A DNA stretch of 64,000 bases. Source: Echinarachnius parma. Taxonomy: Eukaryota > Echinodermata > Echinoidea > Clypeasteroida > Echinarachniidae. Positions within the stretch are counted from its first letter, which is position 1. Each line of letters begins with the position of its first letter. The DNA is taken from positions 1 to 64,000 of the forward strand of contig JBAMJV010001321.1 of the NCBI GenBank assembly GCA_037951105.1, read 5' to 3'. Shown here in pieces: positions 7,011 through 62,654 of this stretch. Position numbers and translations under genes: made by a program. The notes beneath the pieces were generated by a model, which was given only the letters and a program-made list of their open reading frames with translations, was not told the origin of the DNA and did no database searches.

Positions 7011-7341
7011 ATGGGGGAAATCGTGAGGTACGTCGCGCTCCACGACTATGACCCGACGTCGGAGCAGGACATTCAGATGAAAACGGGTCAGATTCTGACC
7101 GTAAAGAACCCGCTACAACTTAGCTATTTTAAAGGGACGGTTGAAAAGCCTGAGAGCTGGCTAGAAGGAACCAATGAAAGTACTCAAGAGAGCGGAACTT
7201 TTCCCGGAACTTACGTTAAATACCACGATAAGAGAACGATCCCGGTGCCGCAAGTGCGGCCGCAGGTGCAACGGCAGAGTTATGAGAGCGTTCTGCCGCG
7301 ACCGATGAGATCAACGTCCTCGGATTCAGCAGGATCAACAG
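7011..7341 (+). CDS. coding exon 1: p85-type SH3 domain
   Basis: Encodes residues 1-110 plus one base. The SH3 domain contains the ALHDY motif (9-13), an acidic RT loop (SEQD), GQILTV (26-31), W50 and FPGTYV (64-69). SH3 domains bind proline-rich ligands. The long insert between GQILTV and the conserved W, and the pattern W-L-x-G-x-N-E-x-T, are characteristic of PI3K p85 SH3 rather than Src-type SH3. The tail (about 76-110) is basic, with many P, R, S and Q residues, like the linker after p85 SH3, but I see no clean PxxPxR site. The donor is CAG/GTGAGC at 7342, phase 1. Start chosen because it is the first in-frame ATG, lies 8 codons before the SH3 core and has a strong context. Confidence 0.88.
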
Positions 7342-10300: not shown

Positions 10301-13300
10301 CGAAGTACCTGATATAGTGAGGTAATTTCACAGGTCCAAGTTCTATTGTTTTTAAGCCCTGATACAACAAGATATCTAACAAGGTACATTCAATGGACAC
10401 AAGGTACTCGTTATAATGAGGTTTCACTACAACTGAAATCATACATTTTGAAATTATACTTGCCCCAATATAACATTCACTTGCCCTCTTACTTTTTTAC
10501 ACGTATGAAATTGCATTGTTCTCTCGGAGCTGGACAATTATCTAGTTGCCCGATAGGGCAGCCAAGCAAACCGGACCATTTATGAAATTTTACTTGCTCG
10601 TCAGGTTGACACGAATTTTTACTTGCCCTTAGCCAGCAGGCATGTGTTAGTGTCGAGCACTGATGTAGTAATTCATGTACATGTATTTACCAGGTAAGCA
10701 GACCTTCAAAGCAACTAAATACAAAATTGTCTTCTTTTCAGACTGAAAGGATTGTTTTCTTTTCTTTTCAGATAGATTTCTACATGTACATTTTTCAAAC
10801 ATAGTCATCCTTATAAAGAGAAAATGTTAAAAAGGGATTTCCCATTATTTATGTTGCTTACGTGATGAACATTGTACCTTGTGAAGTGGAGCAAACAATC
10901 ATGAGTCGTTTTACATCCTAGTATCGATTGATTCAACTCTAGCAGTGCTTCATGTAGTATTGGTTGTATCGTAATTTAGGTAAACACACACAATGTATTT
11001 TGATAAGGGCCCTCCCTATTCATACAATCTCACTAGTAGTCTAGTTCCACTCTAAGCCTGTTTTAGAATATAGAGCTAAAAAGTCATGTGCACAGTATGC
11101 AACAAGAGATCATTTTAGCTGCCAACTAGGGTTAATGGCTTGTAAACCCAGAAAATATGCTTGCCCGATCGGGCCACCAAAATATGACTTTCATACATTT
11201 TTTGCTGGCCCGAAGCGCAATTTGACTACTGTACGTATGCGTTTCTTGTTCAGTGAATGCGTCCCTTGTCAGGAGATGTCCACCGTTTTATCCGGCGGAA
11301 TGTTTTGTGCATGCAGCAATGGAGATAGAGCTTGACACCAACTTTTGTTTGTGCTAGTGACTTGTTTTAACATGTAAGGGTGTTGTCACATATCATCGGA
11401 CAGTTCAAACGGACGCCCGGCAGAAACAAAAATTACAAAAACAATTTATCCGGTGGTGAAAGTTGTCTCCATTGCTGCATGCACAAAACATTCCGCCGGA
11501 TAAAACAACGGACATCGCCTGACAAGGAACGGATTCGCCGAACAAGAAACGGATGAAAAATTTTGCTCACCATCGGGAGTCCACTAAATATTTTTTCTTA
11601 TTTCTCTTGTATTTTATACAGAAAACAATGGCATTTTGCATGGCAATACATGTACGCTTAGGAGATGCTCACTGAGGAATCAGCATCTTTGTTCTGTTTC
11701 TTATAAATAAATCTCACATACATATTCCACATCTACCATTTTCTACAACTATAAACTTTAATACAAACATGTGTACTGCTAATGGTACCAATTATGTGTA
11801 GTCGGTATTTCACTGTTGCATACTCTGTACATAGTATTCAAAGTCATTAACTGTTAATTGCAAGATCTGGGAGCTGAAACAAGGAAGTAATTCATACAAA
11901 TGGTGTGGATCTTGTACTGCGTGTGACACACGTTAAAAGGGATAATCACACTGCACTGTAGTCAATGCTCATAGCATGTATAGGCACGCTGGTCTGGGGC
12001 CGTGACAAAAATACTTGGGGGGGGCAAATTTGCCCCCAAATGCCCAAAACAGCCCCCGAAAATTAAAAAACGAGCCCCAAATTTGCATTGAGTTCAATGC
12101 AACAAATTTTGGAGTGTCATTTTTATGCTGGCAAGCTTGAAAATTTAAAAATTTGCTCTGGGCCACCAGTATTTCATCAGCACATAATATGCAAAAGTTT
12201 ACTTGCACAAATGGGCAGCCCAAAATATATGCAAATTGTCTTTACAAATTATCAGGCCCTCCTATAACTTTATGAGCCTATCTAGTGCATTGCATTATGT
12301 GCACCAGCGCCAGTGGCACCTAATAGTAACGTTCTAGTAACGTTTTAAAAAACCACACAACTTACTAAGAACTCTAGATTCTCTCATACTGTACCTTGTT
12401 ATAATATTCATATCATCAATAGTAGCATGGAACAGGTTTTTTTTGTCCCTTTCATTAAAAACATATTTAAATGTATGATTGTACTGTTTTGATTTTTTTT
12501 TTTGTTATCCACAGGATTGTTATAATTGTGTACACAGTCAGTGCAATGAGTAAGGGAATATCACTTTGCATTTCTGCTCATTTCTTGACCAATATACATG
12601 TATGGAATAACACAGAACTGAGCTATGAACTGTATAGATACCACGTTATATTATAAAAGCAACCCTCAATTTGTACGGTTATTGTGTGTACACACAAATC
12701 CCAGATAAGCTTTTTAATGTACTGTACGTTCCATTACAAGTATGCACTGCACATACAGAAACAAATTTATTGTGACAATTCAATGCAAGAAAAAAATGTA
12801 ATGTATGCCTTTGCCTGGAAAATTACTCTTACTGGTACTCAAATGTACATGTAGTATGCTCTCAACTTCAAATTTCTGAAACGACCAAAGTTGCATCTCT
12901 TGTGGTTCTTTCATGCCATCTAGTGAAAAAACCTACACAGTGACTTCGGCTAACCAAAAATGCAGCAAGAGCCCCTGATAGTCACAAAAGAGCCCCTGTC
13001 ACAAAAGAGCCTCTGATAGTCACAAAAGAGCCCCGGATAGTCACAAAAGAGCCCTGGATAGTCACAAAAGAGCCCTGGATAGTCACAAAAGAGCCCTGGA
13101 TAGTCACAAAAGAGCCCCGGATAGTCACAAAAGAGCCCCGGATAGTCACAAAAGAGCCCTGGATAGTCACAAAAGAGCCCTGGATAGTCACAAAAGAGCC
13201 CTGGATAGTCACAAAAGAGCCCCGGATAGTCACAAAAGAGCCCTGGATAGTCACAAAAGAGCCCCGGATAGTCACAAAAGAGCCCTGGATAGTCACAAAA

Positions 13301-16300
13301 GAGCCCTGGATAGTCACAAAAGAGCCCTGGATAGTCACAAAAGAGCCCCGGATAGTCACAAAAGAGCCCTGGATAGTCACAAAAGAGCCCTGGATAGTCA
13401 CAAAAGAGCCCCGGATAGTCACAAAAGAGCCCCGGATAGTCACAAAAGAGCCCTGGATAGTCACAAAAGAGCCCCGGATAGTCACAAAAGAGCCCTGGAT
13501 AGTCACAAAAGAGCCCTGGATAGTCACAAAAGAGCCCCGGATAGTCACAAAAGAGCCCCGGATAGTCACAAAAGAGCCCTGGATTGTCACAAAAGAGCCC
13601 TGGATAGTCACAAAAGAGCCTCTGATAGTCACAAAAGAGCCCTGGATAGTCACAAAAGAGCCTCTGATAGTCACAAAAGAGTCCCTGATAGTCACAAAAG
13701 AGCCCAGCTATAAATTTGCATTGAGTTCAAAACAAATTAAAGAGTGTTGTTTTCATGCAGGCAAGCTTGAAAGGTAGCCCCCCCCCCCAAAAAATAATTA
13801 AAATTTTTTTTTTTCCTGATGCATGTAGTTCCTTTTCTCCTACTAATAGAGTACCGAAGCTGTGACATCATACAAATCTATTTTTAGAATTTCTCAATTT
13901 GCACTTCATTTTCTGAAAAAGCATACAAAATAATGCCTAAAGGTTGAAAATCAATTGAATATGTGATGTATTGGCTGAGATATGACCATCCGAATAAATA
14001 TATTTCAATAGGAAATCACTGTTATAAAATTTGGATCTGGTTCGTAACGTTATGAACCAGAGCAAAATAACAGTGATTTCCTATTGAAATATATTTATTC
14101 GGATGGGCATACATGTACATGTATCTCAGCCAATACTTCAAGTTAAAATTTGGAATTTCTAAAAATAGGTTTTTGATGACGTCACACTTGACCACTCTAT
14201 AGAAGTATGAAACTACCTAAGTTGGTTTTTAAAATTATCTTTTTGTTATTGGAATATTTATGTTTTTTTTTGTAACAATCCTGGGGATCATTTCAACATA
14301 TAAAAACCTATGACAGTGAGTTAGCAAAAAGAACTGCATTTTGGTTCATTACTCGACCATTGGACATTCATTTTACATGGAATTTCCACATTAATTTCTC
14401 AATGGACAATATCACATCACAGAAATACACATTTTTATCAACCATTGAATTTAAAGATCCCTTTATTAACTGGAAAACTAATTTTCAGATTAAGAGGAAG
14501 AATTACAGGACATGTCAATCATCATAAATAACAACAATTGGTCAAAAAAAAAAAAAAAATATGACCTTTGCCCTGTTTTATTTTTTTTTTATTTTGTACA
14601 TTTTGTAATCGATTGATCTCCACTTATGCTCTATTGATGCCAGATTGATTAGACAGCCATTTTGGCAATAGTTCATCATAAATTCATAGTAAATTTATCT
14701 ACAATTACTACATTTTCACTAGACATGACAAATTTAAAGGGATTATTCAATTAAATCTTGTTTTTATCTACTTTTTCTCTGCATACAGGTTCAGCCAATG
14801 GAGGATTGGTCAGTCAAGGAATTGTTACCCCAGAATTCTGTGAACATTGTAAGTCTTTCTCACTTTTTGCTAATTTATAACATCATTTTGCCCCTGAGCA
14901 CCTTGCAAAAGGTGGAATTGGAGCATTAGAAGCCTTCTATATTATTGATAAAGATTCTGCTATCATCTTTATTACTTTTTGTCTGTTAATTGTACATTTG
15001 TGTATGTTTTTCTTTCTTTCTTTAGTTTTTCTCTTAAACCTAAATTTGTTTCCAGTCCAATTGTGTTGTACAATCCACTGTCACCACTGTGACTTTTGTT
15101 GTTGTAAATCTCCCGGTCGTACATTTAAGTAAAGTGTTTGAATGTTTGGATACTGAAACAGACTCAACAAAATGGTGTAACTTAAGAAAAATGTCCTGAA
15201 TGTTGTAGAACTTGTCCATATTTTTGGTAGCCTGATCTGGCAACTAGATGTTTCAAACCAACAAGTCTCATTTACTGACAGTGCAGTTTGGAGCAATGAA
15301 GGGAGTGAGGTTTCAACCTTTAGGTAGACAGTCAAGTTTTGTTTCGGGCCACCAAAGATTCTAAGGAAATATTTTGTACTGTAGGTGCCTGGGCCACTCT
15401 GTGACTCCATATATAGTGTAGAGCCAGTGAGCAAAATACAGAATCAATTTCCAGCATTGGTTCTGTTTTCTTCCACAGGCCAAGATTACATATGGGGCAG
15501 TGGGCCTATAGCAGCGCGGTATCCCAACTGCCAAAACCTCTTCCATAAAATGTGCGCCCCGTTTGCTGACCGCTACGAGAGACAGCCGTTACCTGGTGGA
15601 CTGGATCCATTCAAAGAAGAAGTAAGTGATTATAAAGTATTATTAGGAGTACAATTGTATGTTGATCCTTTCGTACCGTCGCACAATGTCCTGCCAATGG
15701 CGGGAAGGGTTAACGTTGTTGAAACAATACAAGTGATTATTTTGTATTCAATTGTTTTGACCCTTTCAAGACGATTTTTTTGGTGCTAAAATACACAATC
15801 TCCACAGACCCCAGCCCAAGTATTTTTGGGACCAGTCCTGAATGGGTTAAAACATAATGTTAACTTAATTATGTAATGTTTGTTGACAATAGAAGCTTTG
15901 TAATTGTAAAATAACTTCAATTGGACATCACATTTTATTCAAACATTTAATTTCATTTGAAAGCTAACTGAATCTGAACATTGTGAAACTTTCTATTTAT
16001 TTTATTATCATTATTACTTGTTGCTTTGCCCGAGTTAAAGTCTTTTGATTATTTTAGATTGGGGATAGTGCAAAGTTTCCAATAGCTTAATGTTACTGAT
16101 CTTGGCAGTGTATTTAAGCCATTCTGTTTTCATATATATTGCATTGCCTTGCAGTTTGTTGATTACTGGGGAGTGGAGGATGTGTTGAACTGGATGGCCG
16201 TCACCAACATGTACCGCTACGGGGAGCTGTTCAAAGCCAGAGATATCGACGGAGCCAAATTAATAGCCATCAACGAGGAATTCTTACAGGTAAATATTAT

Positions 16301-19300
16301 TCAGAGACAGTCAAACCTGCTCTAGTGACCACCTGTCTATAGAAGACCACTAATCTGTAGCCCATTTCATAAAAACACTTGCAATTGTTGTAAGAGTCCA
16401 ATTATTGTAACTTTCTTGTCATCAGCCAATCAGCATGGAGCATTACAGCTGTTGCCATGGTAGTTACAATAATTGGACACTTACAACAATTGCAAGTGGG
16501 CTACTGGTTGTTTGTCTCAATGCCAAATTTAGACTAAACTTGGGCACGGAATACAGAGCGACGCAATCCCAAACATATAATTAAAACAAAACTTGCATTC
16601 GGCCATCACCAAATTTATATTATTTCGAAGGACCCAAAATTTGTCGGTGTGAGGTTGGCCTGGATTCGGTTCAAGTGGCGGTGTGACTGGGCCTTAACTC
16701 TTTGTGCGCTGTGCAGTAGATCCCCCCATCGCCAGATTATTTTAGGCGCGTGCCGCACACATCGTTTATTGTATGCGCGCGCGCGTCGCACGCATCGTTG
16801 TCGGTGACTAAAGTCGAACGAAGCGCGCCGCTGTTTGTGACTAAAGTCGAACGAAGCGCACAAAGAGTTAAGGGATCAGAGACCTTTTTCATGAAACTTT
16901 TCAAATTGTTGTAAATGTCCAATTATTGTACATAACTATCGTGTCAACAGCCAATCAGCATGGAGCATTATAGCTGTTGCCATGGTAGTTACGATAATTG
17001 GACACATAACTTACTTTTAAAACTTAACTTAGCCAGTTTCTATCAAACCTTTTTTGCCTTCCCTCCTTAATTAGAGTGGATGTGGTGTGCATGGGCGTCA
17101 ATCTGTAATTGATACCCATTCATCAAGGGGATGATCTATTCATTCATCCCCCCCTGATGAATGGGTATTACGTAAGTATCGACGCCCATGGTGGTGTGGC
17201 AAGATTGAGATCCCGAGTTCAAACCCTGCCCACCGCCTTTGTCCTTCAGCAAGACAATTTATCCACAATTGCTGCTCTCTACCCAGGTGTATAAATGTGG
17301 ACCCGGTAGGAGGTGAAAGCATTTATGTGAACGATCTTCCCAATGCCCATGAGCCGCTTGGAAGGAATGCTCCCCAAGGAGTGGAGATGGTGCACACAAT
17401 GTGTGCTGGTTTGAATCGTATCTTATGACCGGGGTAACAGTGTAAAGCGCTTAGAGATAATAATAATAATACACAACATTTATTAGGGGCTTAATACGGT
17501 TGTTTCTAAGCGCACCATTGTCGGTCTACAATTTACTGCCAAAACTTATACTAAACACACAAATTATAAATGATGATAGTGTATCGTATTATTTGCTAAA
17601 TCAAACCTATTATTATTATTAATTGATTGATTGAGTGATGGGTACATTTCATCCTTTACCTTTCCTTTGCTGTTTACATTAGATTAATTACATTCATATG
17701 GGTACAGTCCATCCTTTACCTTTCCTTTGTTGTTTACATTAGATTAATTACATTCATATTTTTGTTATAGTGTGCTCTTCGGTTCTTTGTCCTTTACATT
17801 TACATGTACTTAGCTTTTTTCTGTTTTTTATTGTGGATTAATTAAATTTGTTGTACTTTGTGAAGTGCACTTTGGTATTTCGTCCTTTACCTACATGTAG
17901 AATTACCTTTAAAGGGGACCACCACGCAAAGAATAACAGGGTTAAATACATATATGTTTTGGTACCATTGTTTGATATCAAATAGATGTTCATCACTTTG
18001 CAAAGGTTTGTATTATTAAAAAACAATGCAATTACCAAAACTCACGGAACCAACAGGGCAGATGGTTCCGTAAGCGCCAAACGTTTGCGATAACACGAAT
18101 TATATACCTGCGTACGTTTGGAGAAAGTAGAACCACAGTAAACGCGTACAATGTACGTCCTAGACAATAGTAGACTAGTCTGTCTGCAGACCCATGAACA
18201 TTTACTATAGGAACGTGATGTTTTTTCAAAAATATAATTTGTCTGGAAACCAATTTTTCTGAACTTGTTGGTGGAATGGACTACTAAAACTAATGCATTT
18301 CATTTATAAGTATATTATTTTGGGGTGGTAGTTCCCTTTAATGTACTTATCTTTTTTTTGGTGATGAGAATCAATGTATCAATTACATTCATTTTTGGGC
18401 AAGATGTTGAAAGATGATATTCCATGGGAATTTGTAATGAATGTGTACCAGCATTTCCCAATTCATACATTAAGTGCATTCTGTCCTTTCCCTGTACTAG
18501 TATGTAAAGCTATATACATTGAGTGCATTCCGTCCTTTACCTACTAGTACTGTAGTATGTAAAGCTGCATGCATTGAGTGCATTCCATCCTTTACCTTTA
18601 CTAGTACCAGGTATGTAAAGCTACATACATTGAGTGCATTCCGTCCTTGTCCTTTACTAGTATGTAAAGCTACATACATTACGTACATTCCATCCTTTAC
18701 CTTTACTAACTTAGGTCAAGCTACATTCATTAAAGGGATAGTTGAGTTTTGGTATAGACGGCGCTACACATAATAATTTTTTTGTGAGATAATGAAAAAC
18801 TGAGTGTCAAATTTGAAAGAGCATAATATTTTAATGATGGAATGAACTTGATTTGATCAAAATCGGTTCAGAAATGGCTGAAATATCCATAAACATAACC
18901 ATTCGTAATAAATGTGGGGCCCCACAATTATTGGAGAATATTGAACCAGCCGTTAATAATTTTTTTGAACTGCTTCCTCTTTTCAAAAATTAACAAAAGA
19001 TGTTTTTAAATAGTTGTTGATTATGTCTCTATCAAATCACTATTTCAACAAAACATCACATGCACAATATTTTATTTAAAATGGATGAAACCAATGAGTT
19101 TTGAGAGGGTGCCCTCTTGAGTTTTAACGGCTCTTTTTTTAGTGATTAAAAGAAGGCAAAGAAAATGGGATTCCAACGGGATTCGAACCCGAGACCTCCG
19201 GATTGCTAGACTGGTGCTCTTCTGACTGAGCTATAGAAAACCCTAAACGGTGCTCGTCCCTGAAACCCCTTAATTCTCATTGCCAGAATGGTCAGAAGCT

Positions 19301-22300
19301 AGTATAACCTGCATAAACCCGAAGGATACAAATCAACTTAGGGATATATCAGGCATTTTACTTAGTCATTTGTTATTTTGTATTCCTTTCGAGCATGGTG
19401 GAGTTATAACTGTTAGTTTTTAATGTAATGGTGCATGTTTTGGTTACTAAAATTCAGTTTGACCAAAACACATACTCTTTTTACCCAAACTCAACTATCC
19501 CTTTAAGTACATTCCGTCCTTTACCTTTACTAGTATGTAAAGCTACATACACGTATATATATTAAGTGCATTCCGTCCTTTACCTTTAAATACTAGCATC
19601 AACTTTTCGGTGTATGAGAATGTGTTACTTACATTTTATAACTAATTGAGTATTTGAGCAAGATATGTAATATTTCATGGGAAATAATGTACCAGCACTT
19701 GCCAATTACTGGAAATCAAATGCAATGTGAGGGACGGACACAGCCATGTGCTCCTAGTGCAGTCATGTGAGTTTCTGTCCAAACTTTGTTTGCTTTCCAA
19801 GATCTATATTTAGACGCCAAGTGATGAGCGCATTTCGTCCTTTGCCTCATCTAATGCTAGAAATTAACCCCTTTTTCCTCATGGCCCAGTTGGGAACTTT
19901 GTACAAATATATATACAAAATGTTCTCTGATCTGCCCGAAACCTGAATCTGTTGGCCCCAAGCAGAGAAAAACATTAATAATTCTGTTATATTTGGGCAA
20001 GTAGAATTTAACTACCGTAATGAAATGTTAGTGGCCAGAAGATAATTATTAGTGGCCCTTGACCAAAGGGCTTGTGCCAATTTAGAGCATTGCCTTATTA
20101 TGTCTTTGTGTGCCTCCTTCAGCAAAGTGTTGTGGTCCGAGGATCGCTCTAGATTCTGCTTTCATAATATGAGAATGTTTTTTTACATAATTTGAATCTT
20201 CTGAAGTATTTCATGGAAAGTTTTATTCCTATACCAGCACTCCCAATTAATGGAAACTGATTAACTACACTCTATTTTAGTAGAGTTATGTAACCTTTTA
20301 TATGTGCCTCCTTTTATTTGATGAAGTGTATCAGTATATCAGACAAGTGTCTTGTTCTCCAGCAATGCATATTAAATGGATAGTTGAGTTCTGGTAAAGA
20401 GAGTACAGTTTGGTCAAACTGAATTTTAGTAAGCAAAACCTGCATCAGTAACTATATGTATATGGGGCTGAGGGCGATTTTCCCCCCTAATTTTCAAAAT
20501 AGCCCCCTGAAATCAGTAGGTAGCCCCTAAAATTACCATCCATAGGGTATTTACTATTATGTGAGTTTTTTTGGGATATCCATCAGATTGGAAAAGTAGC
20601 CCCCTAAAATTGAAAATTAATTCCTGCATTGTTTCAGACCATCAGCGTGCTAGATCAGCAATGCATACTAATAGCTCGGGATGAGTTATGTTGGAAGAAT
20701 TAATGAACCAATTCTAGCTCAATCATAAGATACATGCAACTACATTATACATTTGTGTTCTTCATTTTTTTTTCTAGTCATTTCAATGTCATCGCCTTTT
20801 TTCTTTTCTTTCTTTTCAGACGATCAGCGCGCTAGACAAGTTCCATCAGCAGTGCATTCTAATAGCTCGGGATGAGTTGTGTTGGGGAGAGTCAATGAAT
20901 TGGGCTAGAGTGAAAAATAACCAGATTTGTTGACCTTCAATTCATTTGAGCTGTGTTTAATTTCACTACCTTTTTATTTCCTGTTGTTTTCTGTACAGAC
21001 AATCAGTGTCCTAGACAAGTTCCATCAGCAGTGCATTCTGATAGCTCGGGATGAGTTGTGTTGGGAAGAATCAATGAATTGGGCTAGAGTGAAAAATAAC
21101 CAGATTTGTTGACCTTCAATTCATTTGAGCTGTGTTTAATTTCACTACCTTTTATTTCCTGTTGTTTTCTTTACAGACAATCCGTGTCCTAGACAAGTTC
21201 CATCAGCAGTGCATTCTGATAGCTCGGGATGAGTTGTGTTGGGAAGAATCAATGAATTGAGCTGTGTTTAATTTCACTACCTTTTATTTCCTGTTGTTTT
21301 CTGTACAGACAATCAGTGTCCTAGACAAGTTCCATCAGCAGTGCATTCTGATAGCTCGGGATGAGTTGTGTTGGGAAGAATCAATGAATTGAGCTGTGTT
21401 TAATTTCACTACCTTTTATTTCCTGTTGTTTTCTGTACAGACAATCAGTGTCCTAGACAAGTTCCATCAGCAGTGCATTCTGATAGCTCGGGATGAGTTG
21501 TGTTGGGAAGAATCAATGAATTGAGCTGTGTTTAATTTCACTACCTTTTATTTCCTGTTGTTTTCTGTACAGACAATCAGTGTCCTAGACAAGTTCCATC
21601 AGCAGTGCATTCTGATAGCTCGGGATGAGTTGTGTTGGGGAGAGTCAATGACCAGATCGGGACACAAAGAATCTCCTCCAATCGCTCCGAACTGTGAGTA
21701 CAAGCACTCATTTTCAGGACTACACCAACAGTCCTTTTTCAGGACTACACCAACAGTCCTTTCTAGGACTACCATAGTCCTTTTCAGGACTCTCCATAGT
21801 CCTTTTCAGGACTCACCAATCCTCCCCTCTCACATGGTGCAACCGCAAACCAAGAATATTATATACACCACCATGGAAACCGATACTTACAAGCAACATT
21901 TAAGCACTCATTGTTTAACACTTTGAGTGCCAGGGATTTGAATGCTCTATGGCATTTGTGTGTATAGTAACTCGCAAAAATTTGAGAGTGGCACTCAAGG
22001 AGTTAACCCGAAGCCTCCACACTAACTTTTGTTGTTTTTTTTCTTCTAATTTTACTTCCCCAAACAGAAAATGTACTTGTCCCCCCAAAATGTACTTACA
22101 TACTTCAAAATATTGATCAGTCTTAAATTTGTTTTACATGAAACCTTGTGGGAAATAAGGGGGGGGGGGGGGGGGGTGGGGATGTTCTTTTATGATTTTG
22201 AGAGATGTTTAATTGGCAATTCGTATTTTTATTTATTCTATTTTTTTGCCTGTTAAGTGTTTTTTTTCTTTTTTCTGAGTGTTTTTAAATGCTATCTGTA

Positions 22301-25300
22301 CTGAATGAGGTACATATATACGCCACGTGGTGCAGTGTTTAAAATCTTGTTAAAATCTTCCAGGGTCACGTCCCAGGTCTCCTGTGACATGCTTCCAGGC
22401 ACACTGGCACAGTTTCTCTCTCTTACAGATGCTGGTACAAACACACAACATATTCCAAGAAATGTCTATGATTGACATTAAATTTATAAAAATAAATAAC
22501 TTGGGGAAAATCTTGAATTTCCTGATAAATGCTGGTAGGGTTCAACAGCAGCACTTGGCTGATGGCGCGGAGCCAGTGGAAAAAATACACGGGGGCTCGG
22601 GGCGAATTCGCCCCTGAAATGGCAAAAAGAGCACCGGAAAACCATAAAAGAGCCCTGGAAAACCATATATACATGTAAGAGCCCTGTAAAATTGCATAGA
22701 TGTATAGAGTTCCATGCAAATCCAATTTTGGAGTGCTATTTTCATGCAGGCAAGTTTGAAATGTAGCCCCCCCCAACAATACAAAAAAATGTTTTCCCTG
22801 CGCGGAGCAAGTAAAGATTGCCGCCGGACAACCAACATGTCTGTAATGTCAAATTTGAATTGCATATATCCAGTATATACATATATGGGCAACCAGCTAA
22901 ATTAAAAATTAATTCCTTCATTGAATTTATAATAGGTATCTTTAGGTGCTTATGAATGTGTTCCTTGTGATAATTTTTTGTTTGCACCACTCTAGAGAAA
23001 TCAGTTTGCTTCATCTGTTGGGTATATTTTAGATGATTTGAAAATCTTAATAATCCTGACTGTGTTTATCATTTTTTATAAACTCTCTTCACTCTTCACT
23101 AATCCTACCTCATCACTCACACCCCGTGTTCACACACAAAAATGTCATCGTATAGCTAATCAGGAGCTGACTAAAGAATCGGCTCCTGATTAGCTATACG
23201 ACGGAAATTGTCGGAAATTGTGTGTCTGAACGATCGCTTAACGAAACGACGTATAGAGAATCATGATTAACGAAACGGGGGGTTTGAGCATCGTTTCGTA
23301 CGAGAGCTGACTAAAGAATCACGGTCGTTTCATGTGTGAATGTCCGGTGACTCGCTAATCATGATTAACGGGGCGTGGCTTAACGTGACCGCGCGCAAAA
23401 GGAGACCTGACCTCTGATTTGTGTGTGTTCCCTCCAATCACAGCCCAGTTTGATTGGCCACTCACAGCCTCTTTATTGTTCTATGTCTCCGCCCCCTTCC
23501 TTAGCCGTATGCATGTGTTTGTATCATGTTTAGTATATAGTATTATGTATTTTATGTTTCCTCGTTAGTTAGCCTCTGAAGAAGATTCTGCTAGGATAAA
23601 AAATTTAGGCCCTATATCGACTCTCATTTTATTATACACGCATTATTATAGTAGATAAGCAGTTTTCAGCAGTATTTTTGCATCATTTTTATAAACAACG
23701 CTCTAGAGAAAACAATCAAACAAATGTGAGATTACGTATGTATCTTTTTTTTCAAATCTGAATAATTGTGCGTAATAATTTTTGTTTACCGCTCTAGAAT
23801 GATAGTCCACTTGATCTATTGGGAAAATTTGAAATTATTTTTTGTGAAAATGTGAATAATCGTGACTTTGTAATCATTTTTCTTTACTCCGCGTTAGAGA
23901 AAACATCATTCTCCTTCATCAGTTCAGAAAATTTGAAATTGTTGTTATTTGAAAATCTGACAAATTTGTGAATTAATGTCTTCTAATATTGTACTTTTTC
24001 TAGGCACCAACCCTCAGAACGAACACCGACTGAGAGAGAGGACGTTCTCCACGCTGCAGTGGTGCGATAAGTGCGGCAAGTTCATGTTCGGTTTAGTGCA
24101 ACAAGGACTCGAATGCTCACGTGAGTTTTACACTTTCCATTTTTATGTGATGTGTTTATGGTACTGTAGCTGGAAAAAAAAAAATCTGCTCAGTTCTCCT
24201 TTACACCGTGTTATGGTGTGATAAATGAAATTCTAAAGGAAATTAGTCTGACTTATTTGAAAAGAGTAGAATGTTTTCCAACCTTCAGTGGTGCGATAAG
24301 TGCGGCAAGTTCTTGTTCGATTTAGTACAACAAGGACGTGACGTAGGCCTACTTCACTTTATCTTCCAGTCTTTATTTATTTATTTTTTAGAGATTTACA
24401 AACAAAGACAAAGACTTGTTGAGTATTCACATAATTATTAAGTTCACAATTTCCTACTGTGCACTTGTGTTTTAATATTTGGCACAGATTATACAAAGTT
24501 CAAATTAGATGTGGAATGTTTCAGTTGGAATGGCTTCATGGTTTACCGTCAGTGTTGGTTTAAAAATGATGAGATAAATGGTGGTTTTTGTGCTGAATTG
24601 TAGGAGAACCTGAATTTGACTGGCAATTTAAGCAAAACAAAAAAAGATGTCTTTACAATCAATTGAATAACTTGAATGTATTCAGTATTTTTATGTCATG
24701 TTTGGCACATAATATGGGGATCAATTACTGTAGTTTTGCTCCTGGTCATAATTATTTATTTATTTATATACAGCCACAATTTCATTAAATTTGCAATCAA
24801 ACAATAAGCAATACATCATGATTTAATAAAGATGTTAAGCATGCTGGGCAGCTATGACAGCATTCATCACACTTCAATAGACTTATCATGTGTAGAAAAT
24901 TATTAATGTCTCGTTTGTCAAGTGCAACAATGTGAATCTGTTTCATGTCATTTGATAATTTGTATGCCACAGGCAAAACTATACTGAAAGAAATGTGACA
25001 TAATGAAACATTGGAAAAATTCTCGGCTTATTATAAAATGCTTGATGCTCAGCACATGTTCAAGTGGTGGACACACATGTAGTAAGCATGTCATTTTTCT
25101 TCTTCTCATAACGACTTAAAGGGGACCACCACACAAAGAACAACACAGGCTTACATTGTATGTTTCAGTTACGTTATTTGAGAATAAATACATGTAGATC
25201 TGTCCAACACTTTGCAAAGGGTTGTTTATTTAATAAATAATGTAATTAATCACTTGAACTTATGGAACTTTTAAATTAATAACAGGGTCTCATGTTCTGT

Positions 25301-28300
25301 AAGTGCCAAAACCTTTTACTGTATGTTTGGAGACTATAAAATGTGTAGATCCTAGACAATAGAATTTTCTGAACTTGCAGGTGGAATGGATGTTACCAAA
25401 ACAATTACTTTTCATTTATAAGAATTTTATTTGTGGGTGATGGTTTCCTTTAAATCCAACTTGAAGAGGGATTATATTCTGCTAAAATGTGATTGTTTCA
25501 TAATTAAATAATATAACGCGAACTGTGAACTAGGTATCTGTTTGCATAGTAAATATTTCAGGTACCATAATATGCAACAGATTATGTTACTGTTCAGTGA
25601 TCCAGTAACTTCATTCGATTTTTCCAAAATTTTGAGATTTCTTACCAGTAATATTAGTTGTAAGATTTTTTCTGAATGATGTGTGATTATGGTTTGGTAG
25701 AAAAAGAAACTGTTAACCTAATTATGAAGACAAAAAAGTGAAAATGGGTACATGTCATATTTTTTCACCTACTGCCCATTCAATTTAATTTAACTAGAAT
25801 TGAAAAATCATTCCAGAACACTTTTCAATTCAATCATAATTAGGGAGACAATAAACAAAATCAAACCCTTTTCATTTTCTTCTGTTATCACAAGCCAAAC
25901 AAAAAGTTGCATACGTATAAGAGAAATTTGTAGAAGTTCTAAGTGGTTTTGGTTGAATTTGACTAATTTAATGATCACTTTAAGCCTCTTTAGGCCTCTT
26001 GAGGAGTGCGAGTGTCGAGCCCTGCTTATAATGTTTTGGTTCTTCTATAGATTGCAGGAGTATTTTCCACCGAACATGTGCAGCTACAGCACTAACGGCT
26101 TAATACTTATGACTTCCAAACGTCAAGGAAGCATAGACTTCTATTTTCATGATTCATTTCCGTAATTGTACAACAATCTGATGGTCTGTTTTTTGTTATT
26201 TACCTTTGATAGATTGTGGATGTATCTTCCATCGAACCTGCGCAGCTACCGGAGTACCAGCTTGTGACCCTTCCACCATGAGGCCTCGGAGGGACAGTGC
26301 TATACGAGGTGAGATAGTCATGATGATGATGATGATGGTGATGATGGATCCTGATGATGATGATGATGATGATGGCGGTGATGATGATGGTGATGATGAT
26401 GATGATGACGATGATGATGACGATAATTACGATGATGACGATGATGACGATGATGATGATGATGATGAAATATTATGTTTGGCCAGCACAACATACTAAA
26501 AGTCTTCCTTTTGGTGGCCCGATAGGGCAAGAAGATTTTCAAACTTACAATGACAGAATGAACAAATTATTTATATCAAGCCGCAAAAGTAATTACAGGT
26601 TTGATAAATTTAGGGTGAGAGGTTTTGAATGATATTTAGTTTACAAATGAAAAGTAATTATTTGGCCTGAACAATTTAATTTAGGGCCAAAGACTAATTG
26701 GCCCAACAGTGCCACTAGCAAAACAAGTATGGAGTTCTGCCTTGTGTACATGTAGATATATATTAAGATCTACATGATGATGACTGCATGTATGAAACTA
26801 AATTATGTTTTTTAGAATCTGAAACAAATTTTGTTTTAAATTTCCTGTAATGAGCTATTCGCGGATTGAGGGAAGTGAAACTAGTCATATTCAGTGTAGT
26901 ACACACCTGGGTGAAATGCGTAAACTAATGACCACTGTCTCATCATTATAAATAGTATGCACCGCCCAGATTTCTGATTTTAATTGGGCTGTAGTGAGTG
27001 TGATTTTTTTTCTATTTCTCTTTCTCTAGAGACTAGAGCTACATGTATCTTTCTGCATATTACCAGCTCACTGTATCTCTCTCTCTCTCTCTTGCGAGCT
27101 CTCCTGCTCTACCTAGTTACCTTTTAATACATATTTTGTTCCTCTATTCAATTAGTGAGTGTACATGTAATGTCTCCATTTCTATATCTTTCTGCCTGTT
27201 ACTAGCTTTGTCATTCACTACCTTTTTTATAATCCATATTTTGTCTCTTAATAGTTCAACTGCACTACATACGTATTTACATTCATGAGTGTAATGCAAT
27301 GCTAGAGATGAACCTTTTTGCCTTGTGGCCCAGTAGGGCAAGTCAAAACAAGATTGTTCAACTTTGAGTGGCCCGGAAACTAAATCTGGTGGCCCCATAC
27401 GAAGAATAACATAACAATTTCTGTTAAATTTGGTTGCCCGAACGGGCCAGTAGAATTTAGGATCAATGAAATTTGGTGGCCCGGAGCTAATTTTTAGTGG
27501 CCCCGGGCCAGCGGGCCTATGCTAATTTTGAGCACTGGTGTAATGTCTTCATGTGGCTATAGAGCCATCTTTCTTCCTATAATTACCAGCTCTCTGTATC
27601 TCATTTATTTACTACCTTACATGTTGGAATCCACAGTTTGTCTGTGTTTGTCTAGTTTAATTGCACTACATGCATGTACAGTTTGTTTGTTTGTTTGTTT
27701 GTTTGTTTGTTTGTTTGTTTGTTTGTTTGTTTGTTTGTTTGTTTGTTTATTTCCGAAATCACAACAATAAATACAGCAATGAAGTGCAATGGGGGATTGA
27801 CCCAATTCAGCAGAATAAAAAAAGACAAAACCGCTGTTCTTCCTTGGGGTCCCAAGTGAATGTATTATGTTCTCATCTCTTTCTATTTCTTTCTGCCTGT
27901 TACTAGCTGTTTGTATTTCACTTTATCACTACTTATCATGTTGGTAATACATATTTTGTCTCCCTAATTCAATTGGACCATTTAGAACTATTGTTCAGTA
28001 AAAACTGAACACATTACTGTGTAAAGGCATGTACATACATGAATACACTGTACAGTAGTAGTCTGTGCCCACATACGAATGTACACACCTGTACATGTAC
28101 ATGTAATGTATTAAATTGCATACATTTGCAGCATTTTAATTAATAAGGCTCAAGTTCTCAATTAATGCTGTTATCCGATCCGGATCCGATCCGAGATCCC
28201 GGCGGTAATGGCTTCCGAGCCGATTCCGAGACGGATCCGAGAAATATTTTTTCTTGGTAGAAAATATCGGAAGATTTTGCCGACCCATTTTCTCCAGTGA

Positions 28301-39718: not shown

Positions 39719-42700
39719 CCTAAGGGAAACAAGAAAAATGGTCACTGCAGACAGGTGACCTCTAACAGGTTCTATCTGTCGAGCTGACTAGAGTCTAACC
39801 TGTGTACATATAGTGACCACCTTGAAGGGAAACAAAACAAATGGTCACTGCAGACAGGTGACCTCTAACAGGTTCTATTTGTCGAGCTGACTACAGTCTA
39901 AACCTGTGTATAGTGACCACCTTGAAGGGAAACAAAACAAATGGTCACTGTAGACAGGTGACCTCTAACAGGTTCTATTTGTCGAGCTGACTACAGTCTA
40001 AACCTGTGTATAGTGACCACCTTGAAGGGAAACAAAACAAATGGTCACTGTAGACAGGTGACCTCTAACAGGTTCTATTTGTCGAGCTGACTACAGTCTA
40101 AACCTGTGTATAGTGACCACCTTGAAGAGAAACAAAACAAATGGTCACTGTAGACAGGTGACCTCTAGCAGGTTCTATTTGTCGAGCTGACTACATTCTA
40201 AACCTGTGTATAGTGACCACCTTGAAGGGAAACAAAACAAATGGTCACTGTAGACAGGTGACCTCTAACAGGTCCTATTTGTTGAGCTGAATACAGTCTA
40301 AACCTGTGTATAGTGACCACCTAAGGGAAACAGATGGTCACTGTAGACAGGTGACCTCTAGCAGGTTCTATTCGTCGAGCTGACTACAGTCTAAACCTGT
40401 GTATAGTGACCACCTAAGGGAAACAGATGGTCACTGTAGACAGGTGACCTCTAGCAGGTTCTATTCGTCGAGCTGACTACAGTCTAAACCTGTGTATAGT
40501 GACCACCTTGAAGGGAAACAAAACAAATGGTCACTGTAGACAGGTGACCTCTAACAGGTTCTATCTGTCGAGCTGACTAGAGTCTAACCTGTGTACATAT
40601 AGTGACCACCTTGAAGGGAAACAAAACAAATGGTCACTGTAGACAGGTGACCTCTAACAGGTTCTATTTGTCGAGCTGACTAGATTTAAACCTGTGTATA
40701 GTGACCACCTTGAAGGGAAACAAAACAAATGGTCACTGTAGACAGGTGACCTCTAACAGGTTCTATCTGTCGAGCTGACTAGAGTCTAACCTGTGTACAT
40801 ATAGTGACCACCTTGAAGGGAAACAAAACAAATGGTCACTGTAGACAGGTGACCTCTAACAGGTTCTATTTGTCGAGCTGACTACAGTCTAAACCTGTGT
40901 ATAGTGACCACCTTGAAGAGAAACAAAACAAATGGTCACTGTAGACAGGTGACCTCTAACAGGTTCTATCTGTCGAGCTGACTAGAGTTAAACCTGTGTA
41001 TAGTGACCACCTTGAAGAGAAACAAAACAAATGGTCACTGTAGACAGGTGACCTCTAACAGGTTCTATTTGTCGAGCTGACTATACAGTCTAAACCTGTG
41101 TATAGTGACCACCTTGAAGAGAAACAAAACAGATGGTCACTGTAGACAGGTGACCTCTAACAGGTTCTATCTGTCGAGCTGACTAGAGTCTAACCTGTGT
41201 ACATATAGTGACCACCTTGAAGGGAAACAAAACAAATGGTCACTGTAGACAGGTGACCTCTAACAGGTTCTATTTGTCGAGCTGACTACAGTCTAAACCT
41301 GTGTATAGTGACCACCTTGAAGGGAAACAAAACAAATGGTCACTGTAGACAGGTGACCTCTAACAGGTTCTATTTGTCGAGCTGACTACAGTCTAAACCT
41401 GTGTATAGTGACCACCTTGAAGAGAAACAAAACAAATGGTCACTGTAGACAGGTGACCTCTAACAGGTTCTATTTGTCGAGCTGACTAGTCTAACCTGTG
41501 TATAGTGACCACCTTGAAGAGAAACAAAACAAATGGTCACTGTAGACAGGTGACCTCTAACAGGTTCTATCTGTCGAGCTGACTAGAGTCTAACCTGTGT
41601 ACATATAGTGACCACCTTGAAGGGAAACAAAACAAATGGTCACTGTAGACAGGTGACCTCTAACAGGTTCTATTTGTCGAGCTGACTACAGTCTAAACCT
41701 GTGTATAGTGACCACCTTGAAGGGAAACAAAACAAATGGTCACTGTAGACAGGTGACCTCTAACAGGTTCTATCTGTCGAGCTGACTAGAGTCTAACCTG
41801 TGTACATATAGTGACCACCTTGAAGGGAAACAAAACAAATGGTCACTGTAGACAGGTGACCTCTAACAGGTTCTATTTGTCGAGCTGACTACAGTCTAAA
41901 CCTGTGTATAGTGACCACCTTGAAGGGAAACAAAACAAATGGTCACTGTAGACAGGTGACCTCTAACAGGTTCTATCTGTCGAGCTGACTAGAGTCTAAC
42001 CTGTGTACATATAGTGACCACCTTGAAGGGAAACAAAACAAATGGTCACTGTAGACAGGTGACCTCTAACAGGTTCTATCTGTCGAGCTGACTAGAGTCT
42101 AACCTGTGTACATATAGTGACCACCTTGAAGGGAAACAAAACAAATGGTCACTGCAGACAGGTGACCTCTAACAGGTTCTATTTGTCGAGCTGACTACAG
42201 TCTAAACCTGTGTATAGTGACCACCTTGAAGGGAAACAAAACAAATGGTCACTGTAGACAGGTGACCTCTAACAGGTTCTATTTGTCGAGCTGACTACAG
42301 TCTAAACCTGTGTATAGTGACCACCTTGAAGGGAAACAAAACAAATGGTCACTGTAGACAGGTGACCTCTAACAGGTTCTATTTGTCGAGCTGACTACAG
42401 TCTAAACCTGTGTATAGTGACCACCTTGAAGAGAAACAAAACAAATGGTCACTGTAGACAGGTGACCTCTAGCAGGTTCTATTTGTCGAGCTGACTACAT
42501 TCTAAACCTGTGTATAGTGACCACCTTGAAGGGAAACAAAACAAATGGTCACTGTAGACAGGTGACCTCTAACAGGTCCTATTTGTTGAGCTGAATACAG
42601 TCTAAACCTGTGTATAGTGACCACCTAAGGGAAACAGATGGTCACTGTAGACAGGTGACCTCTAGCAGGTTCTATTCGTCGAGCTGACTACAGTCTAAAC

Positions 42701-44487
42701 CTGTGTATAGTGACCACCTAAGGGAAACAGATGGTCACTGTAGACAGGTGACCTCTAGCAGGTTCTATTCGTCGAGCTGACTACAGTCTAAACCTGTGTA
42801 TAGTGACCACCTTGAAGGGAAACAAAACAAATGGTCACTGTAGACAGGTGACCTCTAACAGGTTCTATCTGTCGAGCTGACTAGAGTCTAACCTGTGTAC
42901 ATATAGTGACCACCTTGAAGGGAAACAAAACAAATGGTCACTGTAGACAGGTGACCTCTAACAGGTTCTATTTGTCGAGCTGACTAGATTTAAACCTGTG
43001 TATAGTGACCACCTTGAAGGGAAACAAAACAAATGGTCACTGTAGACAGGTGACCTCTAACAGGTTCTATCTGTCGAGCTGACTAGAGTCTAACCTGTGT
43101 ACATATAGTGACCACCTTGAAGGGAAACAAAACAAATGGTCACTGTAGACAGGTGACCTCTAACAGGTTCTATTTGTCGAGCTGACTACAGTCTAAACCT
43201 GTGTATAGTGACCACCTTGAAGAGAAACAAAACAAATGGTCACTGTAGACAGGTGACCTCTAACAGGTTCTATCTGTCGAGCTGACTAGAGTTAAACCTG
43301 TGTATAGTGACCACCTTGAAGAGAAACAAAACAAATGGTCACTGTAGACAGGTGACCTCTAACAGGTTCTATTTGTCGAGCTGACTATACAGTCTAAACC
43401 TGTGTATAGTGACCACCTTGAAGAGAAACAAAACAGATGGTCACTGTAGACAGGTGACCTCTAACAGGTTCTATCTGTCGAGCTGACTAGAGTCTAACCT
43501 GTGTACATATAGTGACCACCTTGAAGGGAAACAAAACAAATGGTCACTGTAGACAGGTGACCTCTAACAGGTTCTATTTGTCGAGCTGACTACAGTCTAA
43601 ACCTGTGTATAGTGACCACCTTGAAGGGAAACAAAACAAATGGTCACTGTAGACAGGTGACCTCTAACAGGTTCTATTTGTCGAGCTGACTACAGTCTAA
43701 ACCTGTGTATAGTGACCACCTTGAAGAGAAACAAAACAAATGGTCACTGTAGACAGGTGACCTCTAACAGGTTCTATTTGTCGAGCTGACTAGTCTAACC
43801 TGTGTATAGTGACCACCTTGAAGAGAAACAAAACAAATGGTCACTGTAGACAGGTGACCTCTAACAGGTTCTATCTGTCGAGCTGACTAGAGTCTAACCT
43901 GTGTACATATAGTGACCACCTTGAAGGGAAACAAAACAAATGGTCACTGTAGACAGGTGACCTCTAACAGGTTCTATTTGTCGAGCTGACTACAGTCTAA
44001 ACCTGTGTATAGTGACCACCTTGAAGGGAAACAAAACAAATGGTCACTGTAGACAGGTGACCTCTAACAGGTTCTATCTGTCGAGCTGACTAGAGTCTAA
44101 CCTGTGTACATATAGTGACCACCTTGAAGGGAAACAAAACAAATGGTCACTGTAGACAGGTGACCTCTAACAGGTTCTATTTGTCGAGCTGACTACAGTC
44201 TAAACCTGTGTATAGTGACCACCTTGAAGGGAAACAAAACAAATGGTCACTGTAGACAGGTGACCTCTAACAGGTTCTATCTGTCGAGCTGACTAGAGTC
44301 TAACCTGTGTACATATAGTGACCACCTTGAAGGGAAACAAAACAAATGGTCACTGTAGACAGGTGACCTCTAACAGGTTCTATCTGTCGAGCTGACTAGA
44401 GTCTAACCTGTGTACATATAGTGACCACCTTGAAGGGAAACAAAACAAATGGTCACTGCAGACAGGTGACCTCTAACAGGTTCTGTT

Positions 44488-45540
44488 TGTAAGTACTTTG
44501 TAAATACAGAGTAAGTACTTCAGTTTACATTGTGAGTTTGAGCACATTCAATCCTGATTGTAAAGCCACAAATCCTGTGTACTAGAGGAAGTGAAAGACA
44601 CAATGCAGTCTCGTATGTACAATGCTTGTCTGGTCATTAGTCACACAGTTGCATTGTGAGTCTTAATAAGCTTGGCTTTGATTCCAAGTTGGCAAGTTCA
44701 AGCCGTATAATTTGATTGAATTTTATGAAAATGCATACATGTGGTTTTAATTGCAGTATGTTAGGTTTACTTTAATATGTCATCCATTCATTGATTAATG
44801 AAATGTACCATCGCTCAAGATAATCATTTTGAAAATTATATGTATAGTTTTATACAGACCCTGTAAATGCTGTATTTTTTTGCATAATCATTTTTCACGT
44901 TGGGCAACAGGATAAGACATTGGTCAATGGCGGGTTTTGAAAATGAAACCGACTCACGATTTGATTTATTTTTCCTTTGCAAGCTGCAAATATATGAATG
45001 AACATGAAAATTAATGTTTTTTTCATCTTCCCGCCCCACCCCCCCCCCCCCCCCAAAAAAAAAATAAATAAATAAAATAAAATAAAAACAACATGTTTAC
45101 TAACTAAGTAAAATTTGACATTTTCAAAATGTAAGTGGCCCGAAGCTCAATTTTGGCGGCCCCGGGCCAGTGGGCCTTTGCTTCTTTCAAGCTCTGCATG
45201 CCTTGTGCATGAAAATGTATATCAAGGATGATCTTAAAATATTACATTATCTTGGATTTGGATTTGGATTTGGATTTGGATTTGGATTTGGATTTGGATT
45301 TGGTATTCTGGCATCCCACCAAATATTTCAAGGATTGAGATGTCAAAGTTATTTCTTTGTTGCAAGTTTAATATCTTTTTATGTGATAGCTGGCATGTCA
45401 CCAACATATCAAGGGTGATCGCATTGATACAATTTCTATAAAGTATGATATTGTCTCTAATCAGAAGACAGATGTATTAAACAGGGCTATATACAAGTTC
45501 CATTTGTATAATCCATTAATTGTCACTATTTTGTATTTAA
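44488..45540. other. unassigned region with simple repeats
   Basis: C-run and A-run at 45038-45080, a fragment of the GGCC-rich family at 45118-45196, and (GGATTT)n at 45253-45302. No exon seen. Confidence 0.6.
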
Positions 45541-60667: not shown

Positions 60668-62654
60668 ACGCGTAAAAACGTGTATACATATACGCATTAT
60701 TCTCTTTCTTTTATTGCGTTGTCATTAGCTGATGATAGCTACTATGTTTGCAGACGTAGATTATAAGAGGCCAAGGTGCGCAGAGGTTATAGGTACGCAT
60801 TTCAAAATTAGTTCCGTAAGGAAGCAAAATTGGTAAGAACATTTCACAATCAAACAATGTACGTAGTTAATCCGCGTATTTGATAAGTCTAGCGCCTAGC
60901 GGGCGAAAACAAATACATGTAAGTAGTCACAAAATAAAGAGCGCTTATCAAAGCGCTCTCGTATACGCGTTTTCCGTTCGAGGTATATTATACGATTTAA
61001 AAAATGATCGAAATCAATTCCGTAAGGAAGTGAATTAAATAAAAAACATTCCACAAAACAATGATCGAATTAACGCCTTTTAAATAAATTTGGCGTACGA
61101 AACTGTTCATAACGCGAATAACGCGAATATAATGGAAATATACGCGTCATACGCGATGGCATAATATCTCAGAGAGAAAACTATGGGAGAGTTCGACTTG
61201 TTGCTATGGAAGCGCATTGAAACATAGGCGCATTTCATTGTCACGACTTGTTTATTATTTTTAAATGCGTACCTCGAACGCGTAAAAACGCGTATACATA
61301 ATTATACCCATTATTTTTTTTTCATTATTATGTATGTCATGTAATTTCCATCATTTTTAAATGCGTATCTTGAACGCGTAAAAACGTGTATACATATACG
61401 CATTATGGTACTATTCTCTTTCTTTTATTGCGTTATCATTAGCTGATGATAGCTACGATGTTGGCAGACGTAGATTATAAGAGGCCAAGGTGCGCAGAGG
61501 TTATAGGTACGCATTTCAAAATTAGTTCCGTAAGGAAGCAAAATCGGTAAGAACATTTCACAATCAAACAATGTTCGTAGTTCCGCGTATTTGATAAGTC
61601 TAGCGCCAAGCGGGCGAAAACAAATAAGTAGTCACAAAATAAAGAGCGCTTATCAAAGCGCTCTCGTATACGCGTTTTCCGTTCGAGGTATATTATACGA
61701 TTTAAAAAATGATCGAAATCAATTCCGTAAGGAAGCGATTTAAATAAAAACCTTTCACAAAACAATGATCGAATTAACGCCTTTTAAATAAATTTGTCGT
61801 ACGAAACTGTTCATAACGCGAATAACGCGAATATAATGGAAATATACGCGTCATACGCGATGGCATAATATCTCAGAGAGAAAACTATGGGAGAGTTCGA
61901 CTTGTTGCTATGGAAGCGCATTGAAACATAGGCGCATTTCATTGTCACGACTTGTTTATTATTTTTAAATGCGTACCTCGAACGCGTAAAAACGCGTATA
62001 CATAATTATACGCATTATTTTTTTTTCATCATTATGTATGTCATGTAATTTCCATCATTTTCAAATGCGTACCTTGAACGCGTAACAACGTGTATACATA
62101 TACGCATTATGGTACTATTCTCTTTCTTTTATTGCGTTATCATTAGCTGATGATAGCTACGATGTTGGCAGACGTAGATTATAAGAGGCCAAGGTGCGCA
62201 GAGGTTATAGGTACGCATTTCAAAATTAGTTTCGTAAGGAAGCAAAATCGGTAAGAACATTTCACAATCAAACAATGTTCGTAGTTCCGCGTATTTGATA
62301 AGTCTAGCGCCAAGCGGGCGAAAACAAATAAGTAGTCACAAAATAAAGAGCGCTTATCAAAGCGCTCTCGTATACGCGTTTTCCGTTCGAGGTATATTAT
62401 ACGATTTAAAAAATGATCGAAATCAATTCCGTAAGGAAGCGATTTAAATAAAAACATTTCACAAAACAATGATCGAATTAACGCCTTTTAAATAAATTTG
62501 TCGTACGAAACTGTTCATAACGCGAAAAACGCGAATATAATGGAAATATACGCGTCATACGCGATGGCATAATATCTCAGAGAGAAAACTTTCCCCACCA
62601 TTTTCACTTTTCATTGTCACGACTTGTTTATTATTTTTAAATGCGTACCTCGAA

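Follow-up and report, generated by a model that had tools for sequence, protein, structure and literature searches.

A p85-type gene and its two haplotypes

The DNA analysed here, termed the window, comprises the first 64,000 nucleotides of contig C1320 (C1320:1-64000) within the 1.2-Gb genome of Echinarachnius parma, which is assembled into 14,790 contigs. Mitochondrial COX1, on contig C14600, has AAA at a position where Asn is conserved and reads well when ATA is translated as Ile, in keeping with the code of echinoderms and hemichordates; the encoded protein looks echinoderm-like. Judged by its domain content, the gene bearing the array described below is a homologue of the PI3K regulatory subunit p85, and all of its exons mapped in the window lie on the forward strand. 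The first mapped coding exon (7011-7340) encodes a p85-type SH3 domain with PI3K p85-alpha as its best match (3.5e-13), and is identical between the two haplotypes at 330/330 nucleotides. The next mapped exon carries the first part of a SAM domain (16155-16289) and ends in phase 0 at the donor CAG/GTAAAT; beyond the array lie two exons encoding the halves of a C1 domain. The first of these (24004-24120) matched PF00130 with 31.1 bits alone and, when joined to the second (26213-26308, with splice sites placed by reading the sequence), with 47.7 bits. The first exon of the RhoGAP (BH) region (31033-31131) gave no Pfam match by itself, and shared 52% identity over 27 amino acids with a p85 bait (E 0.073). 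Searches by tblastn with a p85 bait placed RhoGAP-like BH, nSH2, iSH2 and cSH2 regions in this order along a second contig, C2816, the RhoGAP part being matched weakly (best E 1e-5), and PF16454 scored above its cut-off on both C2816 and a third contig, C14340.

The SAM and C1 domains sit between SH3 and RhoGAP in this homologue (window 16155-26308). To our knowledge, vertebrate p85 carries neither domain at this place. Since the other features of p85 are present, the SAM and C1 domains are taken as a lineage difference from the vertebrate form; no description of a p85 with SAM and C1 was found in the open-access literature, searched by titles and abstract openings.

Contig C2816 represents the other haplotype of the region: 29 blocks of 80-99% identity, separated by insertions and gaps, run colinear with window positions 189-48155. 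Exon limits on C2816 were mostly taken from the ends of similarity matches. The iSH2 matches of the window haplotype were found on C14340 and none on C1320, and the remainder of this haplotype's p85 gene seems to lie on C14340. Other tandem arrays were also observed in the window: a large array of a 100-bp unit in about 48 copies within the p85 gene region (39722-44490), a 21-bp unit repeated 35 times (12967-13705) with several frames open on both strands, and a 494-bp tandem array that reaches the window end (62653-64000).

Tandem acceptor-side copies of the SAM exon

Between the first SAM exon and the C1 exons, at 20638-21693, lie seven head-to-tail units on the forward strand, each made up of an acceptor followed by the initial portion of a SAM-helix exon. 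An earlier note, made from the letters alone, had described seven tandem SAM-exon copies here, six of them terminated by stops, and this was borne out, with the AG of the acceptor kept in 7/7 copies. The exon parts start at 20638, 20820, 20999, 21177, 21309, 21441 and 21573, so that the spacings are 182, 179, 178, 132, 132 and 132; the earlier description of units of 178 and then 132 bases thus holds except for the first spacing. Tandem Repeats Finder scored two parts of the array at 826 and 1026, beyond chance. The repeated piece had been read as the SAM helix exon, and Pfam agreed: SAM_1 scored 26.3 bits for the exon at 16155-16289 alone and 38.4 bits when this was joined to the last copy, indicating that the repeated piece encodes the last helix of the SAM domain.

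Copy 1 (20638-20703) is a degenerate acceptor-side copy, 9 nt shorter in frame and with a poorer pyrimidine tract, in which a stop follows WKN, while copies 2-7 carry a long pyrimidine tract. Copy 2 (20820-20933) holds the acceptor and 79 nt of the exon and is stopped after NWARVKNNQIC, as is copy 3 (20999-21112), which has the same structure in a 178-type unit. Copies 4 (21177-21260), 5 (21309-21392) and 6 (21441-21524) are 132-type units stopped after EESMN. The readings of copies 1-6 thus end in WKN, ESMNWARVKNNQIC or EESMN, each followed by a stop, and the prediction that splicing into an earlier copy would give a protein stopped right after SAM is correct by translation. Copy 7 (21573-21693) is the complete exon of 121 nt, encoding the last SAM helix and a linker and running from phase 0 to phase 1.

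Candidate donors were sought by scoring GT dinucleotides with 5' splice-site frequencies, taking a score above 0 as the threshold. No GT above this threshold was found in copies 1-6, and the donor of the complete exon, GTGAGT at 21694-21699 on the forward strand, was the only one between 20600 and 21740, in agreement with the claim that the last copy alone has a donor. Copies 5, 6 and 7 share all of the final 50 intron nucleotides, with a single difference in copy 4. Acceptor strength therefore cannot single out the last copy from its neighbours, and what differs is the donor.

Tandem copies of one exon also make up Dscam-type mutually exclusive exon arrays, in which the copies are complete, open and flanked by both splice sites. 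In the present array, however, only the last copy is complete, and stops interrupt 6/7 copies in the window and 13/14 on C2816. A Dscam-like choice among exons was rejected because the copies are incomplete. The array also resembles the minisatellites or VNTRs, in which tandem units vary in number and are homogenised: its units are arranged head to tail, variable in number and homogenised within a haplotype. Unlike a minisatellite, it has an acceptor and coding sequence in each unit and ends with a unit that is a working exon.

The array on the second haplotype

On C2816 the array has 14 units, namely one degenerate, twelve without a donor and one, the last, complete. Copy number thus differs between the chromosomes, 7 in the window against 14 on C2816, in a comparison of two haplotypes only, and the exact numbers could be off. 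The presence of a 14-unit version on a separate contig indicates that the array is real and copy-number variable. When the array DNA was searched against the whole genome, 6 matches were obtained, one on C1320 and five on C2816. Copy 2 is recognisably alike on both haplotypes, with the same pyrimidine tract and the peptide TISALD, while the order of the 178-, 179- and 132-type units behind it differs. The array seems to predate the two haplotypes and to have been rearranged since, as the shared copy 2 and the differing unit order suggest.

It could be argued that the array was produced by the assembler, as the window ends inside another array, the iSH2 matches lie on C14340 rather than C1320, and repeats may break assembly. 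However, two contigs of different sequence carry it, and their flanks, unit order and copy-specific changes differ. An assembly artefact had been named in the earlier note as a possible outcome, and the presence of the array on the separate contig speaks against it; we regard the chance of such an error as next to nil.

An insert of a few hundred base pairs, absent from the window, separates units 1 and 2 on C2816 (between 61375 and 60703), where the spacing is 740; its ends appear inverted when read by eye. The only two non-terminal GTs of the C2816 array scoring above 0, at 61140 (4.6) and 60827 (2.2), are both in this insert and none is in the repeat unit. Lying about 300 and 600 nt beyond unit 1, they could serve as its donors and might allow this unit to be recognised as an exon. 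In the donor scan the other C2816 units before the last had no GT above score 0.

Variation and probable exchange among the copies

Constraint was assessed in 17 young copies, after exclusion of units 1 and 2 on both haplotypes. Eight of the 76 exon sites vary among them (8/76), with five changing the amino acid and three not. The last 50 intron sites of the same copies hold two substitution sites and one 1-nt insertion, present in two copies; the 19 variable intron columns of the raw table were an artefact of the shift behind this insertion. Coding constraint on the exon parts of the decoys was thus not seen across the 17 young copies. A coding function of the decoys was rejected on this pattern of variation and on the decay of unit 1 on both haplotypes.

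The two complete exons encode the same peptide and differ by 2 synonymous changes. The working copy of C2816 (B14) is identical over 79 nt to the decoys B6 and B8 and has 2 differences from the working copy of the window (A7), which suggests that the complete exon takes part in the exchange within the array. This same identity could be taken to mean that the half-exon copies act as donors of variation, from which conversion would carry changes to the working exon, as in cassette systems. Yet the two working copies, in the two haplotypes seen, encode one peptide, and the decoy changes S to R, S to N, R to G and C to S are absent from both of them. Sharing of sequence would in any case be expected from unequal exchange, and we find a role as a reservoir of variation barely credible.

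A mirror-image donor array and the geometry of partial copies

An array of the opposite sense was found at the nSH2 exon of the same gene. Here the exon end and its donor are repeated in 65-bp units, with 6 copies on C14340 (16460-16827) and 9 copies on C2816 (22141-21579). The units end in CTCTCAG/GTATGT, the last having GTAAAT, and reading past an early donor runs into a stop. In its layout this donor array is the mirror image of the SAM acceptor array.

Smaller partial copies accompany other p85 exons in the window, all on the forward strand. A partial copy of the first C1 exon lies downstream of it and is devoid of the exon start (24263-24337; 86.7% identity); on C2816 this copy extends to the exon end. 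Copies with an acceptor lie upstream of the second C1 exon (26042-26101; 75% over 60 nt) and of the RhoGAP exon (30718-30857; 84.5% over 142 nt). Larger arrays are fewer, and were found at the SAM exon, the nSH2 exon, the third iSH2 exon and an SH2 exon of another gene on C4334 and C5972. Upstream of the third iSH2 exon there are acceptor-side copies with a stop, two on C14340 (22729-23292) and three on C2816 (11224-10538), so that the array sizes are 3 and 4, respectively; on C14340 a donor-side copy lies directly downstream of this exon as well. The SH2 exon on C4334 and C5972, which look like haplotypes of one locus, has partial copies of its 3' part behind it, with nine against four extra matches.

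As far as they were mapped, upstream copies that cross an exon boundary keep the exon start and the acceptor side. Such acceptor-side copies were found for SAM, second C1, RhoGAP a and c, iSH2-2, iSH2-3, iSH2-4, C1075, C3638, C1092 and C2794, while the downstream copies, at first C1, RhoGAP b, nSH2, iSH2-1, C4334, C3546, C7040 and C2478, keep the 3' part. At C4334, C7040 and C2478 there is no exon-end donor scoring above 2, and the donor side was assigned by position. Inner fragments, which do not cross a boundary, make up the copies at C4339 and cSH2a and one copy at C3638. The layout of the boundary-crossing copies necessarily follows when one breakpoint of a tandem duplication falls within an exon. 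No whole-exon copies were seen in the p85 and SH2 sets, where a placement model predicted 4.4 for the 19 events that cross a boundary (probability of none 0.003), or 4.8 of 20 with cSH2a included; the model is rough, with spacing used as unit length and the events chosen after the fact. We read this deficit as suggesting that whole-exon duplications are removed, since they would be spliced in.

Frequency of partial copies at exons

The frequency of partial copies was assessed by blastn, counting matches of E 1e-4 or better and at least 30 nt within 1 kb. For p85 on C2816, partial copies accompanied 14/19 segments, corresponding to 12/17 distinct exons once two copies were merged with their exons. 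Among 170-bp intronic segments of the p85 set used as controls, 58/329 had such copies (p 5e-6 against 12/17). For other genes, 20 loci were fetched from 68 SH2 matches and contained 24 matches. A first pass that allowed copies anywhere in the 6-kb loci gave 11/24 against 114/472 controls; in the final set, with the 1-kb limit and with four second haplotypes and one match that was itself a copy dropped, 9/19 SH2 exons had partial copies against 61/278 intronic controls (p 0.016). Pooling p85 and SH2 gave 21/36 exons against 119/607 controls for copies of any age (p 9e-7). For chaperonin exons (PF00118, 63 matches) there were no clear tandem partial copies at a threshold that would miss fragments of 20 codons; two matches on C7269, separated by about 1.6 kb, overlapped in the profile.

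An excess of this kind might mean that tandem duplications arise preferentially at exon edges in this genome, as mutational hotspots with some link to transcription or splicing. The proportions at the p85 and SH2 exons favour this reading, and the excess persists in the pooled set for copies of at least 90% identity (9/36 exons against 55/607 controls, p 0.006), with 3/19 against 27/278 (p 0.30) in the SH2 set by itself. When intronic flanks were scored alone, however, copies of at least 90% identity were at background (3/33 against 28/329, and 3/38 against 27/278), and it was copies of any age that were in excess (13/33, p 0.005, and 14/38, p 0.04). The excess is thus in the older copies, as would be expected if copies of constrained sequence can be recognised for longer, and we attribute it to the slower decay of such sequence; by our own estimate, copies at exons would stay recognisable about twice as long under selection. 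The rate of duplication itself is probably not raised at exon edges, though a mild preference for them may exist, and a hotspot as the explanation of the arrays appears very unlikely.

Comparison with known cases

The closest known case appears to be a duplication in the potato RdRp gene PGSC0003DMG402000361. There a tandem duplication spans an intron-exon boundary; the first of the exon copies contained a cryptic GTAAG donor, and a new spliced intron resulted, supported by 106 RNA-seq reads (PMC4974935). The SAM array shares with it a duplication crossing the intron-exon boundary in the same geometry, but differs in that no donor arose in the units, in having 6 and 13 extra copies where potato has one, and in a copy number that differs between haplotypes (PMC4974935). 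Intragenic segmental duplications, as cited in the potato study, likewise include intron and exon sequence; there entire introns are copied, whereas here half-exons are left inside an intron (PMC4974935). Multi-copy half-exon arrays were not described in the open-access literature covered by a limited search of titles and abstract openings.

The human OGT decoy exons, residing in detained introns, bear on a regulatory reading of the array, in which the extra acceptors would form a sponge or dosage rheostat. By binding U2AF and U2 they would slow the splicing of the long intron or redirect it, products with a stop would undergo nonsense-mediated decay, and copy number would tune p85. The acceptors of copies 5 and 6, which over 50 nt do not differ from that of the working copy, would suit such a role, as would the stop right after SAM that any use of them entails and the two GTs above score 0 downstream of the degenerate unit 1 on C2816. 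The OGT decoys do act in this way, and like the SAM units they are exon-like, intronic and furnished with acceptors and a premature stop (PMC12017769). However, the OGT decoy described there depends on a 5' splice site of its own, and splicing becomes constitutive once this site is mutated or blocked (PMC12017769). The SAM units are without such sites, with unit 1 of C2816 as a possible exception; from unit 2 onward no GT scores above 0 on either haplotype save the last donor. Copy number, moreover, doubles between the haplotypes, and partial copies occur at many exons of other genes. We therefore consider a sponge or rheostat decidedly unlikely.

A probably tolerated array of half-exons

The array is most probably a neutral, copy-number-variable tandem repeat in a repeat-prone genome, tolerated by splicing and joining an intron's 3' end to the initial 79 nt of the exon that follows. 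It would have arisen when a local tandem duplication, broken within the intron on one side and within the exon on the other, left an acceptor with half an exon as its upstream product and an intact exon as its downstream one. Unequal exchange would then have expanded and reshuffled the array to 7 and 14 units, and presumably homogenised it together with the working exon. The suggestion of the earlier note, that unequal crossing-over was tolerated because the last copy works, is supported by the reshuffled 7- and 14-unit versions, by the lack of constraint on the decoys and by the recurrence of partial copies at 12/17 p85 and 9/19 SH2 exons. The identity of the gene as p85, this recurrence and the mirror-image donor array go beyond what that note describes.

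Tolerance would follow from exon definition, under which the splicing of a short exon within a long intron depends on the pairing of its acceptor with a donor close by. A unit with one splice site would not be recognised as an exon, and the array would be tolerated for this reason. The extra acceptors would presumably be passed over by the spliceosome, since the last acceptor is the only one in the window that is followed by a donor at the distance of an exon (121 nt). Joining an earlier acceptor to the last donor would produce an exon of at least 253 nt with an internal stop. By the usual rule, mRNA with such an internal stop is subject to decay. The recurrence at 12/17 p85 and 9/19 SH2 exons and the doubled copy number fit tolerance better than a dedicated switch, and a decoy or dosage switch is, on the present sequence comparisons, less likely than neutral duplication.

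A wider reading, which we put forward as an improbable one, would have half-exon arrays form a genome-wide, allele-variable class of naked splice sites, with acceptors upstream and donors downstream of their exons. They would act as graded competitors whose copy number sets the level of productive p85 (and other) mRNA, and would be the raw stage for new introns once a donor mutates in. In either case, two haplotypes with 7 and 14 acceptors before one exon, and with 6 and 9 near-identical donors behind another, amount to a natural experiment on exon definition. If the extra acceptors are ignored, this would explain the persistence of duplications at exon edges and show a step before intron gain; if they are not, the haplotypes would provide a natural dosage series in a signalling gene.
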